A stretch of 33,897 nt of DNA, from assembly GCA_944358945.1 (NCBI GenBank), contig CALVSH010000054.1:1-33897 (forward strand), in the 5' to 3' direction. The stretch is from an uncultured Bacilli bacterium. GTDB lineage: Bacteria; Bacillota_I; Bacilli_A; RF39; UBA660. Of the stretch, positions 25,447-32,130 are shown piece by piece (position 1 is the first letter of the stretch; each line of letters starts with the position of its first letter). The notes under the pieces were generated by a model. It had not been told where the DNA came from. It was given only the letters and a program-made list of their open reading frames with translations, and ran no database searches. The translations under genes and the position numbers were made by a program.

Positions 25447-26751
25447 CTATTTCTTCTTTTGAAACACCACATTATCCATAGTTTTCACATTTTTATCTAT
25501 GTATAAAGTTAAATAATCTGAATTAGTCTCATCTTCATTAACAGTAACAGAAAAATCAGTATAATCCATAGTACTAAGAAACAAATTTTGTAAGCCCAGT
25601 GTCTTATTTTTCTCAATCTGTTCTGCTTTACCAACGAAATTTGATTTATTAGAAAACGTTTTAGGATTATTAATAGCATCATCACTTAATAACTGATGAA
25701 AACGAAGAGACATTACTTGTTGCCTAGGAACTTTTATTGTATGAATATCATTATCAAGCAAAATTTGATAAAAAGATAAAAGTGCCATTCTAAACTTAGG
25801 ATGAGAAGTATATAAAACACCACTTTTATTTAATTTGTGATATAAATCTCTAACTACCCCCTTAGAATCTTCATTATCCTTCCCATTTTGTATAGCGTAA
25901 ACATAACATACTTTTTCTAAATCTTCTTCTCTAATACCATATAAAATATTAGGTAAGCTCTGTCTACCTTTTTCATTTTCTATCACAAGCTTCATCTTAT
26001 ACCAGGTCTCATCATAATCATTTCCTAACAAATTCTGATACCACACATCATATCCTAAATATTTCATATTTTTACCATCTTTTGCATACGAAAACGTTTC
26101 ATCTTCCAAGAAGTCTAATTCCTTCTCTAAAAATTCTTCCACCTGATCAAAATCATCATTTCCCATTCGCAACCATAAACACATCATGATTACCATACTA
26201 CGATAAGTTAACGTACGATAACGAGTCTCTTTTGAATCATTTTCCTTAACCAATCTCTTATGAACAATTTTATCTAATAAAGAATAAAACTTTTTTTCAT
26301 CATGTACAAAAATATAAAAAGCATCATTGTCAACGATCAAGGGATTTTCAAGTAAATGAGAAAAATATATCTTAGGAATATCAATATTACGACTAATACT
26401 TTCAACAACAGATTTTTCAAAGACTGTCTTAGTAGAAGCAACAGAAATTTTCTCTGACCTCTTACTAATCGTCATTTGTAAATAATCTAAAACATCTACC
26501 TGATAACCATCAAAAAAATCAACTAAAACATCAACCGCCTTCAATAACTGATTAAAATCCATTGCTTTTACTATTTTATCAAGCCTATCTTTTTCATTTC
26601 TAAACTCAAACAAAATATTCGCAACATCCCTATCAGAATATTGAGATAATTTCTCTTTCAATTTAAAACTCTTTAATTTTCCTCTTCTAATTAATTTAAT
26701 AGTATTTTCTAACTCTTTCATCTTTTTTTCTTCATTTAAATTATTACTCAT
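25447..26751 (-). CDS. Unknown 434-aa protein
   Basis: A large soluble protein with no family I recognise. It is mostly helical and charged: the first 90 residues are Lys/Glu-rich (LIRRGKLKSFKLKEKLSQYSDRDVANIL), followed by alternating helices with several Trp/Tyr (MMCLWLRMGNDDFDQVEEFLEKEL, YLGYDVWYQNLLGNDYDETWYKMKLV). The last 60 residues look like strands (FSVTVNEDETNSDYLTLYI). There is no signal or membrane segment. It has its own promoter and terminator and no operon partners. It is large, uninterrupted and in the common minus-strand direction, so it is a real gene; its role is unknown. Confidence 0.75.
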   Translation of the reverse strand: MSNNLNEEKKMKELENTIKLIRRGKLKSFKLKEKLSQYSDRDVANILFEFRNEKDRLDKIVKAMDFNQLLKAVDVLVDFFDGYQVDVLDYLQMTISKRSEKISVASTKTVFEKSVVESISRNIDIPKIYFSHLLENPLIVDNDAFYIFVHDEKKFYSLLDKIVHKRLVKENDSKETRYRTLTYRSMVIMMCLWLRMGNDDFDQVEEFLEKELDFLEDETFSYAKDGKNMKYLGYDVWYQNLLGNDYDETWYKMKLVIENEKGRQSLPNILYGIREEDLEKVCYVYAIQNGKDNEDSKGVVRDLYHKLNKSGVLYTSHPKFRMALLSFYQILLDNDIHTIKVPRQQVMSLRFHQLLSDDAINNPKTFSNKSNFVGKAEQIEKNKTLGLQNLFLSTMDYTDFSVTVNEDETNSDYLTLYIDKNVKTMDNVVFQKKK

Positions 26752-26809: not shown

Positions 26810-26834
26810 AAAAAAAGAAGTCCAAAGACTCCTT
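26807..26834 (-). terminator. Intrinsic terminator of the SPFH gene
   Basis: Minus strand AAGGAGTC, loop TTTG, GACTTCTT with one G-U pair, then a long T run. It starts two bases after the stop codon. Confidence 0.8.
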
Positions 26835-26835
26835 A

Positions 26836-28002
26836 TTAATTTAATTTAGTTCCACAATTAGGACAGAAATTAGCACCATTAACTGCATTACCACAGTTTG
26901 GACAAAAACTTCCATTTCCAGCTTGAGCATTACTATTTCTTTGAGCTTGGTTTAACTGACTAGCAGCTTGATTTTGATATGGATCATAAGCTTGTTGTGT
27001 AGTAGCGGCAAAACCTGCTTGAGGATTCATTGCCTGATTAGCAGCTCCTCCTATGACACCACCTGATGCCATATTCATCATACCAACACCTAAGAAACCA
27101 TTCATTGCGCCAGCTTCATTATTAGCAGCATCTTGAACCGCATTAGCATAAGCACCAGCAAGAGTACCCTGTTGCATAAATTGGTTAGATGATAATTCAT
27201 AATTATCAATCTTCTTATTAGATTCATCATCTAAAGTAACACTTTCTACAACAAAACCTACCAAACTTAATCCACGATTACGAATTGGTTGATCAAATAC
27301 CTTTTCATCCATAACCATTTTTATTTCATCAGTTCTACTAGGTAATTCCAACACTGGAACTTTATGTTCAATAGTTCCAAGTTCATTTAAGACATTTTGG
27401 AAAGCCCCAATAACTTCTGAACGCATTTGTTCACAAATTTCGTCTTTTGAATACTCCTCAGCTGTACCAGCAACACGTGACATAAACAAAGCAGGATCAG
27501 CAACTTTAAAAGTATATTTACCAAAACACTTTACTTCTACACGCAAAGGACTCATAGTACCAGTCATTTGATTTGGAATTGGATGAGACCAATCTTGGAA
27601 TGGAATTGGTGCTGGAGTTCCAAACTTATTATCCATTATTTCCTTAGCATTAATATAAAATACTGCCTGTTCTTTAAATGTTCCACCATTATAAGTAAAT
27701 CTTGTCCACATTTCTTTAAAGACATCACCAAATTGTCCTGCAAAAAATGATGGAGATGTTGACTGATCAAAAGTATAAATACCTTCTTCTGCAGTTGCAT
27801 CTAAAATTTGACCATTTTGAAAAATTACTGCGATTTGTCCAGGAGAAACCTGAATAGCACTATCCTTAGAAATAATACCATTAGGAGTAGATACTCTCTT
27901 CATCAAAATATCTTGTCCTAAATCATCACAACGAATATACTCTTTCCATTGATCGTGTAATGTACTTCCTATCGCAGCGGTTGCTGCTTTAATTAAACCC
28001 AT
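26836..28002 (-). CDS. SPFH/Band-7 protein with C-terminal zinc ribbon (YdjI-like)
   Basis: A 388-aa protein. Residues about 15-275 form an SPFH/Band-7 domain of the YdjI/'virion core protein' type (DLGQDILMKRVSTPNGIISKDSAIQV near the start, GKYTFKVADPALFMSRVAGTAEEYS, RGLSLVGFVVESVTLDDESNKKI). Then comes an Ala/Gly/Gln/Asn-rich low-complexity stretch (about 285-360) and a C-terminal zinc ribbon with two CPNCG motifs. SPFH proteins form ring-like membrane scaffolds; B. subtilis YdjI is recruited to membranes under envelope stress, known with its neighbours. Here the neighbours are a TPM protein (22 bases upstream) and zinc-ribbon proteins, so it is the last gene of that operon. Confidence 0.88.
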   Translation of the reverse strand: MGLIKAATAAIGSTLHDQWKEYIRCDDLGQDILMKRVSTPNGIISKDSAIQVSPGQIAVIFQNGQILDATAEEGIYTFDQSTSPSFFAGQFGDVFKEMWTRFTYNGGTFKEQAVFYINAKEIMDNKFGTPAPIPFQDWSHPIPNQMTGTMSPLRVEVKCFGKYTFKVADPALFMSRVAGTAEEYSKDEICEQMRSEVIGAFQNVLNELGTIEHKVPVLELPSRTDEIKMVMDEKVFDQPIRNRGLSLVGFVVESVTLDDESNKKIDNYELSSNQFMQQGTLAGAYANAVQDAANNEAGAMNGFLGVGMMNMASGGVIGGAANQAMNPQAGFAATTQQAYDPYQNQAASQLNQAQRNSNAQAGNGSFCPNCGNAVNGANFCPNCGTKLN

Positions 28003-28024
28003 AAATTTACCTTCTTTCTATATA

Positions 28025-28939
28025 TTAGAAATGGTGTCCACCACCACCATGGCTTCGACCACTACTTCCCGAATGACTAGAACCTCCACCACTACTACTA
28101 GAATGAGAAATTGGAGTAGAAGTAGTATGACTAGAAGTAAGTACATCTCTAACTACCTTAATGTTAATAGATCCTTTTTCTAAGTATTCTCTAGATGTAG
28201 TAGCAACTTTTACCATTTTATTTTTACTAATTAAAATTCCCATTACAATAATAGTAATAACACTAGGTACACCTAAGACAATTAACCAAGGGAATTTTCT
28301 ATAAATTTCTCCATCAGCACTAATTGCATACTTACTATCTATATTACTAGGCAATCCCATTGTATCATAGTTTTCAATAATTGTCATAAATTTTGTAATT
28401 CCTTCAAAATACTTGTCACTTCCAAACTCTGTATAAATAGCATCTAAAATCTTATCAATTCGAATATCATTATACATATCCATCGCTTTACCTGTAGTAC
28501 TTATATAGATTTCTCTATTTTTCATATCTACCAAAAACAACAATCCACTATGATCATCACCTAATCCAAAACTATTATAATCATAAAAATCATCTGCATA
28601 AACTTGACTACAATCTTCATAAGAACAAATCTTATCATAATCACTAACAGTCACAATCGCTAAATCTAAATTACTCTTCTCAATAAATTGAATAACTTCA
28701 TCATAAAGAATAACTTCTTCTTGCGAAGTAAGTAAACTAGCAAAATCATATATTTTTTCTTCTGCATTCACAGCTGGTGTAGATAATACACTACTCATAT
28801 TAGAAGAATCAACAACAATATCATTAGGTACCAACCAATTTTCATAAGTTCTGACATAAGTATTGGTACTAGCATCTACCTTAATATATGGCAAAAACAA
28901 AACAAGAATAAGAAGGAAAATCTTAAAACACTTTTTCAT
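28025..28939 (-). CDS. TPM-domain membrane protein
   Basis: A 304-aa protein. It has a signal peptide (KKCFKIFLLILVLFLPYI, likely cut after VDA), an outer TPM domain (about 60-200; IYDFASLLTSQEEVILYDEVIQFIE, GDDHSGLLFLVDMKNREIYISTTG), a membrane segment at about 215-240, and a Ser/Gly/His-rich tail ending GGGGHHF, typical for YgcG-type TPM proteins. TPM proteins are tied to membrane and metal-stress systems (comparative genomics); no activity is settled for this group. I choose the ATG at 28939: AGGAGG is upstream, the stop of the previous gene overlaps it as ATGA, and the reading from 29005 would add a non-signal stretch. Confidence 0.88.
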   Translation of the reverse strand: MKKCFKIFLLILVLFLPYIKVDASTNTYVRTYENWLVPNDIVVDSSNMSSVLSTPAVNAEEKIYDFASLLTSQEEVILYDEVIQFIEKSNLDLAIVTVSDYDKICSYEDCSQVYADDFYDYNSFGLGDDHSGLLFLVDMKNREIYISTTGKAMDMYNDIRIDKILDAIYTEFGSDKYFEGITKFMTIIENYDTMGLPSNIDSKYAISADGEIYRKFPWLIVLGVPSVITIIVMGILISKNKMVKVATTSREYLEKGSINIKVVRDVLTSSHTTSTPISHSSSSGGGSSHSGSSGRSHGGGGHHF

Positions 28940-29991
28940 ATAATTCCTCCTAAATATAGACCTATACAAATAATAAGACATACTAGAAAAATACCAAGAG
29001 ACCATAAAACAACCTCTTTAACTCCTAATGGCAAATCTCCAATAATCTTACCTGTCTGACCATTCATCGCAAAAGTATACATCTTATCACGATATTTAAT
29101 ATTCACCATAAATACAGGCAATAAAATATAATTAGACTTAACATTATTTAAATTAAGTTCATTTTTAACAGCACTCTTCTGCTGATGTCTAACTCTCTCT
29201 TTAAATAATGAAACCGTAGTATTTAAGGTTCTATTTTTTGCTCTTTCAATTGCTTTTTCTTCTAAAACATCATATTTTTCTGATAAAAACCCTGATAAAT
29301 ATGCATGATTATATTCCGTTAAACCCTTATAATCAAAAGGTTCCAAAGAGTCCATCAAATCATCAGGAAACCGTGAAGAGCCATCTGCCAATACTTTATC
29401 AAAATTCATACTACCTTCACAAACTACATCATAAGTATCTGTCTTGGTATAGCTTTGATAATAATCACTCCACGTATGTATATCAACACACTTAAAATGA
29501 ACAGTCCCATCAACATCAAAATCATATGCCCAGAAAGGAATATAAACTCCAGTAATCTTATCAATATTCTTTCGACTCTTAAAAGTTCTAGGTACTAATG
29601 GTTTATGTTTTACAAGATCTAAAAAAGCACTAGTAGCATCTTCCTTAACTTTCTGAAAAGGAATAATAAAATCAGGTACTCTACTATTTTGAATTCTCTC
29701 TTTTAAAATTGCCGTATTTCCACAATAAACACAGAATGTAGCTGTCGTATTAGGATCGGCAAGTATTTCAGCTCCACAACTATTACAACGATATAAATCA
29801 CAAGATTCGACTTTTACTTCTTTTTTATTTTCATTTTTTTGATTTACTTCTTCACTACTAGCATTTTTATACTTTTGTAACTCCTCTAAAGTAAACTCAC
29901 TACCACAATATTCACAAACCCATTTTTGCTTCTTAGGAGAAAACTTCAAAACCGCTCCACAACTAGGACATTTATGATCAAGAGCCTCCAT
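28936..29991 (-). CDS. Membrane protein with two zinc ribbons
   Basis: A 351-aa protein. Two zinc ribbons lie at the N-terminus (CPSCGAVLKFSPKKQKWVCEYC, about 8-32, and CNSCG---CVYCG, about 70-92). A long central domain (VPDFIIPFQKVKEDATSAFLDLVKHKP, GVYIPFWAYDFDVDGTVHFKC) precedes a C-terminal membrane helix (about 328-350, VVLWSLGIFLVCLIICIGLYLG). Similar TFIIB-type zinc-ribbon proteins occur next to TPM and SPFH genes in other Firmicutes, without a settled function. I use the ATG at 29991 with GAGGTGAT upstream, rather than the TTG before it. It is the first gene of the TPM-SPFH operon, with a promoter at 30017-30025. Confidence 0.8.
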   Translation of the reverse strand: MEALDHKCPSCGAVLKFSPKKQKWVCEYCGSEFTLEELQKYKNASSEEVNQKNENKKEVKVESCDLYRCNSCGAEILADPNTTATFCVYCGNTAILKERIQNSRVPDFIIPFQKVKEDATSAFLDLVKHKPLVPRTFKSRKNIDKITGVYIPFWAYDFDVDGTVHFKCVDIHTWSDYYQSYTKTDTYDVVCEGSMNFDKVLADGSSRFPDDLMDSLEPFDYKGLTEYNHAYLSGFLSEKYDVLEEKAIERAKNRTLNTTVSLFKERVRHQQKSAVKNELNLNNVKSNYILLPVFMVNIKYRDKMYTFAMNGQTGKIIGDLPLGVKEVVLWSLGIFLVCLIICIGLYLGGII

Positions 29992-30016
29992 CAAATCACC
30001 TCATTACTCTATCCTA

Positions 30017-30025
30017 ATCATACCA
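30017..30025 (-). promoter_or_regulatory. Extended -10 promoter of the zinc-ribbon/TPM/SPFH operon
   Basis: Minus strand TGGTATGAT, an extended -10 about 25 bases before the start at 29991. TTCTAA at 17 bases is a weak -35. The interval up to the terminator at 30083 holds nothing else. Confidence 0.5.
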
Positions 30026-30082
30026 TATCAAAAGATTTTTTAGAAGAAAAATAAAAGTTTTCTTTTGAACGACTTAATAAAT

Positions 30083-30114
30083 AAAAAAAGATATATGACT
30101 CATATCACATATCT
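30083..30114 (-). terminator. Intrinsic terminator of the 48-aa gene
   Basis: Minus strand AGATATGTGA, loop TATGAG, TCATATATCT with one G-U pair, then T residues. The TGA stop of the 48-aa gene (30105-30107) lies inside the stem, which supports that gene being real. Confidence 0.8.
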
Positions 30115-30251
30115 TCCTTTAATTTGTCCATAGTAGACTCTTTATTAACAACTTCTACAAGTAATTTACCTTCCTTAGAATTGCTATCAATATGAATATT
30201 CTTCATAGCAGATTCCCTCTCTACTACTTCACATCTTTTTTCATCTTCCAT
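30105..30251 (-). CDS. Small 48-aa protein, paralogue of the one at 31969
   Basis: A short acidic/basic mixed protein beginning MEDEKRCEVVERESA, with a core MKNIHIDSNSKE and LLVEVVNKES. The core matches the 53-aa protein at 31969-32130 at 19 of 24 positions, and the replaced residues are mostly conservative. GGTG lies six bases before the ATG, and a terminator is built onto its stop codon. These three facts support a real gene. No membrane segment. It lies between the 294-aa zinc-ribbon gene and the zinc-ribbon/TPM/SPFH operon. Function unknown. Confidence 0.75.
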   Translation of the reverse strand: MEDEKRCEVVERESAMKNIHIDSNSKEGKLLVEVVNKESTMDKLKEDM

Positions 30252-30296
30252 TATTATCACCAATATTAATATATCCATACAACAAAAGAAATATAC

Positions 30297-30323
30297 AAAA
30301 AAAAGAAGAAAAACTCTTCTTCT
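30297..30323 (-). terminator. Intrinsic terminator of the 294-aa gene
   Basis: Minus strand AGAAGAA, loop GAGTTT, TTCTTCT, then a long T run. The stop codon (30322-30324) is partly in the stem. Confidence 0.75.
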
Positions 30324-31206
30324 ACTTATCTATGATATTTTTTATAATTCCAATAGGACTAGATCCTCTAGCAACTCTAAACATCTTATTAATAATATCA
30401 TCTTTAGACTCGCGAATAGCTTTCTCAACTTCACGAACATCCTGATACTTCTTAATCACATTCGTATTAGCTCTAGAATTAGAATCATAATAACGAATTG
30501 TCATATCTCGATATATAAATCTATCTTCAGGAACTTTAATAATTTCATATCCTAAAGTATTGATAAAATAAGCCTTCAATAACTTATTAATCTTCTTATA
30601 ATTTCTCTTCAAAGCTTTAGATATTTCTGGTTTAAATTTATAAGAAGTAATCTCCTCAACCATTTCATCAATATCATAACAAACTTTTAAATCATCGTTC
30701 ATCTTCTTTTGTTCTTTTTCTAATTTTTCAATTTGTTTTATCTCATCTTTTAATTTCTTCTTATACTTAGCTTTTTCATCAATAGATTTCAAACGATCAA
30801 AAGTATCCAAAATAAGTTTAACATCAGACCAAAATTGCATATTTAAATCGCAATCAGTCTCAAAGTCATCCTCATCATATAACTCACCAAAATAACCAAG
30901 ATAAGATTTTATTCTTAAAATAAATGCTTCAATATTAAAAGGATCTAACTCAATAATAGTATCAATAACACCATTAGCATTCTGATATTCTTTTAACTTC
31001 AAATAATTTTTAGCATCCTTTAATCTATCATCATTATCTTTAATACCTGATACTTTAACTTTACCACTTAATTCTAATTTATATTTCGCAACTGCATCTT
31101 CAATAATAATATCACTATTACAATATTTACATGTCGTTACTTCTTCGTTTCTATCTACCTCTAAATTTGCCCCACAGTTAGGACACTTTGCTGCTGTTAA
31201 CTTCAT
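30322..31206 (-). CDS. Zinc-ribbon protein with TPR-like helices
   Basis: A 294-aa protein. A zinc ribbon at about 7-33 (CPNCGANLEVDRNEEVTTC, then KYC) leads to a TPR-like helical pair (LKDAKNYLKLKEYQNANGVIDTIIELDPFNIEAFILRIKSYLG, about 62-105), then a long Lys/Glu coiled coil (about 135-180), and a C-terminal domain I do not recognise. There is no membrane segment, so it is cytoplasmic or bound to partners. It lies 16 bases after the 224-aa membrane protein, so the two form an operon. The zinc ribbon is like that of the 351-aa protein and the SPFH protein nearby. Function unknown. Confidence 0.75.
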   Translation of the reverse strand: MKLTAAKCPNCGANLEVDRNEEVTTCKYCNSDIIIEDAVAKYKLELSGKVKVSGIKDNDDRLKDAKNYLKLKEYQNANGVIDTIIELDPFNIEAFILRIKSYLGYFGELYDEDDFETDCDLNMQFWSDVKLILDTFDRLKSIDEKAKYKKKLKDEIKQIEKLEKEQKKMNDDLKVCYDIDEMVEEITSYKFKPEISKALKRNYKKINKLLKAYFINTLGYEIIKVPEDRFIYRDMTIRYYDSNSRANTNVIKKYQDVREVEKAIRESKDDIINKMFRVARGSSPIGIIKNIIDK

Positions 31207-31222
31207 CTTCTACCACTTTCCA

Positions 31223-31897
31223 TTAAAGAACGATTTCGTCCCATTTAGATTTTTTCTTATTCCATACATATCTAACTTTTAAATGAGATTCCATATCTTC
31301 AACAATCTCTTTCGCAATATCAAAAGCTCTTCTAGCTCTAAAGAATCTAAATAAAGATCTTAAGAATAAGATAGGTGTAACAACAATACCTAATGCTAAT
31401 CCGATAATTCCCATAATACAACCAACATTACCAGTATTTTGTTCTACCTTTACTTGTCCAAACATATCAGTTCTTGCCGTATAAGAAACATTACCAGTCT
31501 TTACATTATAATCATCAACTTCACTACCCCAGGTAAAGAACTTCCAAAATGATGCTGCTCCTACTAAAATATATCCTAACCAAGAATCATCAGGATTTAT
31601 CACAATAATAAGTAAACCTAAAACATATAATACACCAAGAATTAACATAGATTTTATATGAGAATTTCTTTCGTCTCTAGAAACATCATAAACCAAGGTC
31701 ATTCTAGCTAACAAACCTTTAATAGACCATTGATTTTCATTCATTGCATCAACATCATCTAAATAATTACTAATATCACGATTCTCATTAATTTTCTCTC
31801 TAGTTTCTCTTTCCCATTCTTTTAAAGATTTTTTAGACTGCTTCTCTTTTTTCTCTTTCTTTTCCTCTACTACTTCAGTTTTCTCTTCTTTTTCCAT
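31223..31897 (-). CDS. Multi-pass membrane protein with charged N-terminus (224 aa)
   Basis: The first 60 residues are very rich in Lys and Glu and should be a cytoplasmic coiled coil. Three membrane segments follow (about 83-101, 104-120, and 155-177), with an Arg/Phe-rich stretch after the last one (RSLFRFFRARRAF) and a soluble C-terminal tail. I do not recognise the family. GGAGAG precedes the ATG. It is the first gene of a two-gene unit with the 294-aa zinc-ribbon protein, under a good promoter at 31933-31961. Confidence 0.75.
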   Translation of the reverse strand: MEKEEKTEVVEEKKEKKEKQSKKSLKEWERETREKINENRDISNYLDDVDAMNENQWSIKGLLARMTLVYDVSRDERNSHIKSMLILGVLYVLGLLIIVINPDDSWLGYILVGAASFWKFFTWGSEVDDYNVKTGNVSYTARTDMFGQVKVEQNTGNVGCIMGIIGLALGIVVTPILFLRSLFRFFRARRAFDIAKEIVEDMESHLKVRYVWNKKKSKWDEIVL

Positions 31898-31932
31898 AAT
31901 AAAACACTCTCCTTCTTTAACCTCTCGATTTA

Positions 31933-31961
31933 ATTATATATAGAAAAGAATAGAAAAGCAA
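31933..31961 (-). promoter_or_regulatory. Sigma-A promoter of the 224-aa/294-aa unit
   Basis: Minus strand TTGCTT (31956-31961), 17 bases, TATAAT (31933-31938). The leader to the ATG at 31897 is about 30 bases. Confidence 0.7.
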
Positions 31962-31968
31962 GAATTAT

Positions 31969-32130
31969 TTACGAATCATTAAACTGTTCAAAGCTACTTT
32001 CTTTATCCACAACTTCAACTAATATTTTTTTCTCCTTAGAATTACAATCAATATAAATATTTTTCATCATAATATTTTCATCTTCATAACTTTTTTCTTC
32101 TTCTTCCATATTTTTCTCCATTATTAACAT
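31969..32130 (-). CDS. Small 53-aa protein, paralogue of the one at 30105
   Basis: It begins MLIMEKNMEEEEKSYEDE and has the core MKNIYIDCNSKE and ILVEVVDKES, matching the 48-aa protein at 30105-30251 at 19 of 24 core positions. I choose the ATG at 32130, which has AAAGAG eight bases upstream; the inner ATGs at 32121 and 32109 lack a good site. It starts 12 bases after the PHP gene stop, so it is co-transcribed with that gene. No membrane segment and no recognised family. The two copies sit on either side of the 224-aa/294-aa unit, which suggests a local duplication within the module. Confidence 0.7.
   Translation of the reverse strand: MLIMEKNMEEEEKSYEDENIMMKNIYIDCNSKEKKILVEVVDKESSFEQFNDS

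Follow-up and report, generated by a model that had tools for sequence, protein, structure and literature searches.

A probable ydjGHI-type membrane-surveillance operon without detectable PspA, and its separate neighbours, in an uncultured Bacilli bacterium

The closest described relative of the locus reported here is a Bacillus subtilis operon whose products are PspA, YdjG, YdjH and YdjI/L, the last of which joins a band-7 domain to a zinc ribbon at its C-terminus (Ravi et al., 2024; PMC11237479). YdjG combines two zinc ribbons, an NTF2-like domain and a transmembrane (TM) segment, and YdjH contains a TPM domain (PMC11237479). Membrane localisation of both YdjI and PspA requires YdjG and YdjH, and loss of YdjI reduces membrane fluidity (Scholz et al., 2021; PMC8581546). 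The same study presents a two-hybrid network, and induction by envelope stress and formation of membrane foci were demonstrated in B. subtilis (PMC8581546).

The window, the whole stretch of 33,897 nucleotides that was analysed, carries seven ORFs on the minus strand between 26836 and 32130 (Table 1). The first-pass annotation had described them as seven adjacent genes on one strand, and this description and its domain assignments hold. We consider it likely (a probability of about 80%) that the core at 26836-29991 represents a membrane-surveillance operon of the ydjGHI type that lacks PspA, that the genes for the 224-aa and 294-aa proteins are an independent cassette, and that the small proteins are genus-specific and linked to serS. 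Gene content, homology, synteny, the non-detection of PspA, the conservation of the pair and the selection on the small ORFs are the directly established parts of this explanation.

Table 1. Positions of the seven genes and of the terminator-like hairpin, with the evidence used for each.
Feature	Position	Strand	Evidence
Terminator-like hairpin 3' of the SPFH gene	26815..26834	-	-8.4 kcal/mol, z -3.4
ydjI-like SPFH (Band_7_1) protein of 388 aa, without TM segment and with a zinc ribbon at the C-terminus	26836..28002	-	PF13421, E 9e-22; hydropathy
ydjH-like TPM-domain membrane protein, 304 aa	28025..28939	-	PF04536, E 9e-21; hydropathy; upstream AGGAGG
ydjG-like protein of 351 aa with two zinc ribbons, a central domain and a TM segment at the C-terminus	28936..29991	-	Invariant cysteines; YdjG profile
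Copy 1 (48 aa) of the small conserved protein, outside the triad	30105..30251	-	Conservation in the genus; purifying selection; serS synteny in congeners
Soluble zinc-ribbon and TPR-like protein, 294 aa, second gene of the pair	30322..31206	-	Full-length relatives, 64% and 51% identity
Multi-pass membrane protein, 224 aa, first gene of the pair	31223..31897	-	Relatives, 65% and 49% identity; hydropathy; AF2 model
Copy 2 (46 aa) of the small conserved protein, a diverged duplicate	31969..32109	-	DNA 79% identical to copy 1 across 68 nt; protein alignment

The triad is read in the order double-ribbon/TM protein, TPM protein and SPFH protein, and its genes are co-oriented and adjacent. The first two overlap by ATGA. 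The start of the TPM gene is corrected to 28939, with AGGAGG upstream, and that of the ydjG-like gene to the ATG at 29991. The SPFH protein had been annotated with a zinc ribbon, and its C-terminal ribbon is present as CxxC motifs at residues 367 and 380 of a protein without a hydrophobic segment. The zinc-ribbon membrane protein was likewise recovered, with two CxxC...CxxC ribbons ahead of its C-terminal TM segment, and all eight ribbon cysteines are invariant in 10 relatives. For the supposedly secreted TPM protein the domain was confirmed and simple secretion was not, as hydropathy placed a second TM segment at residues 214-240, after an N-terminal hydrophobic segment and before a Ser/Gly/His-rich tail. 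Two or more CxxC motifs occur in only four of the 33 window ORFs of at least 100 aa, namely PriA and the SPFH, 351-aa and 294-aa proteins. Sequence searches of the PDB with the TPM and SPFH proteins gave no useful match. The same genome encodes a second SPFH protein elsewhere (L001, G000:C74:6870-7385), which is a classical Band_7 protein (E 1.5e-42).

The SPFH protein is 84-91% identical in 14 congeners, and the triad is contiguous in 12 of the 15 congeners. Exceptions include one triad split by a contig end (G003) and one cut at a contig end (G015). One congener (G009, L051) keeps the small gene and the SPFH gene without ydjG or the TPM gene between them. In more distant genera ydjG and the TPM gene remain adjacent and the SPFH gene is sometimes on a separate contig. 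Two genomes of the same class carry pspA, ydjG and ydjI in a row, with no TPM gene between ydjG and ydjI, and the YdjG profile built from the window's family matched the YdjG proteins of these pspA operons at an E-value of about 1e-77, so that the triad of the window and the one linked to pspA are homologous. The assignment to B. subtilis YdjGHI thus runs through domains, gene order and these bridge genomes. The earlier suggestion of an envelope module was upheld in part: the SPFH, TPM and double-ribbon membrane proteins are a module of the envelope-stress type and correspond to the ydjGHI part of pspA-ydjGHI. It failed for the membership of all seven genes.

PspA was sought with the PF04012 profile and was found neither in the window's own genome nor in any of the 15 congeners. 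Across 338 sampled genomes of the family, 226 of them at least 90% complete, none had a PspA above the cut-off, and 188 had a Band_7_1 protein above it, some of which may be other than YdjI orthologues. Marginal PspA matches in five family genomes (17-20 bits, below the cut-off) were partial, lay in ORFs of other sizes and were set aside as coiled-coil matches. The window's genome is 69% complete, and the triad could still depend on a PspA that is missing only through this incompleteness; we regard this as extremely improbable, given that no PspA reached the cut-off in the 338 family genomes, the near-complete ones included, that none was found in the 15 congeners, and that PspA was recovered by the same search in nine control genomes, including B. 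subtilis, and in two genomes of the same class. PspA is therefore not detectable in the window's family by a profile search of a kind that would overlook a PspA of strongly diverged sequence or a substitute resembling ESCRT, and the triad, judged from these searches, is a PspA-less form of the known system.

Both small proteins are copies of one acidic protein of 46-48 aa with the conserved core NI-ID-NS-E-K-L-E, in keeping with their first description as paralogues. Comparison with congeners places their starts most likely at 30251 and 32109. The protein was found in 13 of 15 congeners, in the window's own genome (two copies) and in one other genus, a distribution that points to near confinement to the genus. 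Mean pN/pS was 0.16/0.60 and pN was below pS in 120 of 120 pairs, which argues that the small ORFs are real genes under purifying selection. In 11 of the displayed congener loci the small gene lies directly 3' of serS or after one intervening gene, and it persists in G009, where ydjG and the TPM gene are missing. Within the genus the small protein thus neighbours the triad by position and does not belong to it. In the window, serS is not upstream and the two diverged copies flank the 224-aa/294-aa pair.

All seven genes had been proposed to act together, and a single functional envelope module assembling through its zinc ribbons would account for their shared strand, their adjacency and the several ribbons among them. 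Against this, the small genes track serS, and the pair is absent from 14 congeners, all of which have the SPFH gene and 12 of which have ydjG-TPM-SPFH intact. Two other genomes contain the pair, in neither of which it adjoins SPFH or TPM genes, although two of the three occurrences are on contigs that end near the pair, so that a looser linkage could have escaped detection; one of the two other genomes, RUG14412, has its Band_7_1 genes on contigs other than the pair's. Hairpins with T-runs also separate the units: besides the terminator-like hairpin after the SPFH gene, weaker ones, rich in A+T and with T-runs, lie behind the genes for the 294-aa and 48-aa proteins. These make the suggested minimum of three transcription units plausible from the sequence alone; a promoter scan was uninformative, with 44 matches against 37 expected. 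Joint sensing through the shared ribbons found no support, the ribbons being ordinary conserved CxxC pairs. Comparison of gene neighbourhoods thus showed that neither the pair nor the small genes travel with the SPFH and TPM genes, the outcome that the first-pass annotation had itself named as refuting its module, and the seven genes are three units with separate histories: the triad, the pair and the small proteins.

What lies between the small gene and ydjG varies among congeners: this slot is empty or contains either a gene for a 235-aa TM and zinc-ribbon protein or an FAD-dependent reductase (G010). The 235-aa protein has an N-terminal TM segment and a C-terminal zinc ribbon and is encoded in G004 (L055:7033-7740), in G014 and, judged by spacing, in G006 and G011. 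The most fitting reading of the window's pair is as a further occupant of this slot. Four congeners have a different membrane and zinc-ribbon gene upstream of ydjG, which might point to a preference of the slot for genes of related function. This is the single observation that leaves some room for the seven-gene module, which we nevertheless consider very unlikely. On the other side of the triad, a gene for a 434-aa protein (25447-26751), 3' of the SPFH gene, had no Pfam match above the cut-off and was unmatched in all fetched congener regions; it is therefore read as another variable insertion, between the SPFH gene and an ankyrin gene.

The 224-aa and 294-aa genes were neighbours in all three genomes known to carry them, in the same order and with a gap of 14-16 nt. 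Among 118 relatives, the 224-aa gene was present in the window's own genome and one congener, and a scan of genome contigs added RUG14412 as the third. Profiles built from two and from three 224-aa sequences recovered no further credible member in 386 genomes of the family and no further member in 336 genomes of the class, respectively; a match in G185 had two stops and no neighbouring partner gene and was dismissed as noise. The three neighbourhoods differ, the pair lying between the small genes beside ydjGHI in the window, near pnp in the congener (L069) and between a MarR gene and yidD in RUG14412 (L070). Constant order and spacing in such different surroundings argue that the pair is a conserved two-gene unit of its own.

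This patchy distribution over three unrelated neighbourhoods, together with the small-gene copies on both sides of the pair, would also fit an insertion of the pair, as a defence cassette or as cargo carried by a mobile element, that left the small gene duplicated. However, searches of phage and viral collections returned no relatives of the pair, the nearby ORFs that were read included no transposase or integrase, and the two small-gene copies differ too much (pS 0.67, pN 0.29) for a fresh target-site duplication. PADLOC families gave no strong match, and the weak matches were confined to the ribbon and coiled-coil region. Insertion as mobile or defence cargo is thus unlikely, and we favour the independent two-gene cassette.

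The 294-aa protein has one N-terminal zinc ribbon, and its first 90-110 aa or so, comprising the ribbon and a TPR-like repeat, resemble a wider zinc-ribbon/TPR family of Bacilli and Clostridia (L071-L083, starting MKLVAAKCPxCGA), as its initial description implied. That family occurs in unrelated neighbourhoods, another reason why joint sensing through the ribbons lacks support. Unlike the 294-aa protein, which is soluble and has a separate membrane protein as its partner, several family members carry C-terminal hydrophobic segments of their own; the separate membrane protein would therefore supply the anchor. The 224-aa protein is thus probably the membrane anchor of a cytosolic zinc-ribbon/TPR adaptor encoded downstream of it. 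It matched no Pfam family. The three membrane passes first ascribed to it are supported by hydropathy for two strong segments, and its AF2 model (pLDDT 75) has three long helices through the hydrophobic region, the middle one weaker. A fold search of the PDB with this model returned nothing at E<=0.001 and only long-helix noise. For the 294-aa protein, the predicted structure reached a mean pLDDT of 55 and was unusable for a fold search, and a PDB sequence search with its profile gave no useful match. The two genes thus make up a small conserved unit whose membrane partner is without a database family.

The biochemical steps of a model for the Ydj platform are all inferred, and the mechanism is transferred from B. 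subtilis. YdjG, with cytosolic zinc ribbons and a C-terminal TM segment, and YdjH, with its TPM domain outside, a TM segment and a cytosolic tail, would form a membrane receptor at the inner face of which the peripheral SPFH protein YdjI oligomerises. Under envelope stress YdjI would serve as a scaffold and a membrane-fluidising platform. In B. subtilis this platform recruits PspA; because no PspA is detectable in the window's family, the platform there would have to act alone or with another client. The small genes are genus-specific, serS-linked and duplicated around the cassette in this arrangement. A tentative extension is that this family of small-genome Bacilli kept YdjG-YdjH-YdjI after losing PspA and that the three proteins have a PspA-independent job in membrane maintenance, one that may be masked in B. 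subtilis. In this lineage the Ydj receptor and scaffold are open to study in the absence of PspA, which is relevant to the question whether SPFH-TPM complexes work on their own. An apparent seven-gene system has also been resolved into a known system and its neighbours.

Ydj clusters without an adjacent pspA also occur elsewhere. In Enterococcus gallinarum (NZ_CP116511.1, 22417-25594; L128) the same families stand side by side with no adjacent pspA in a different order, the SPFH gene coming first (SPFH-ydjG-TPM). This 484-kb record is labelled a plasmid yet carries rplL, dnaX and recR, and therefore is possibly part of the chromosome. Vibrio and Paracoccus plasmid records contain SPFH-ydjG pairs, again with no adjacent pspA, and the TPM gene was missing in the two proteobacterial examples examined. 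Such clusters are therefore not unique to the window's family. Unlike pspA-ydjGHI of the B. subtilis sigma-W regulon (PMC8581546; PMC11237479; PMC9239133), the window operon is without pspA, and none is detectable in the genome, the genus or the sampled family; with the B. subtilis operon it shares all three domain architectures and their order.
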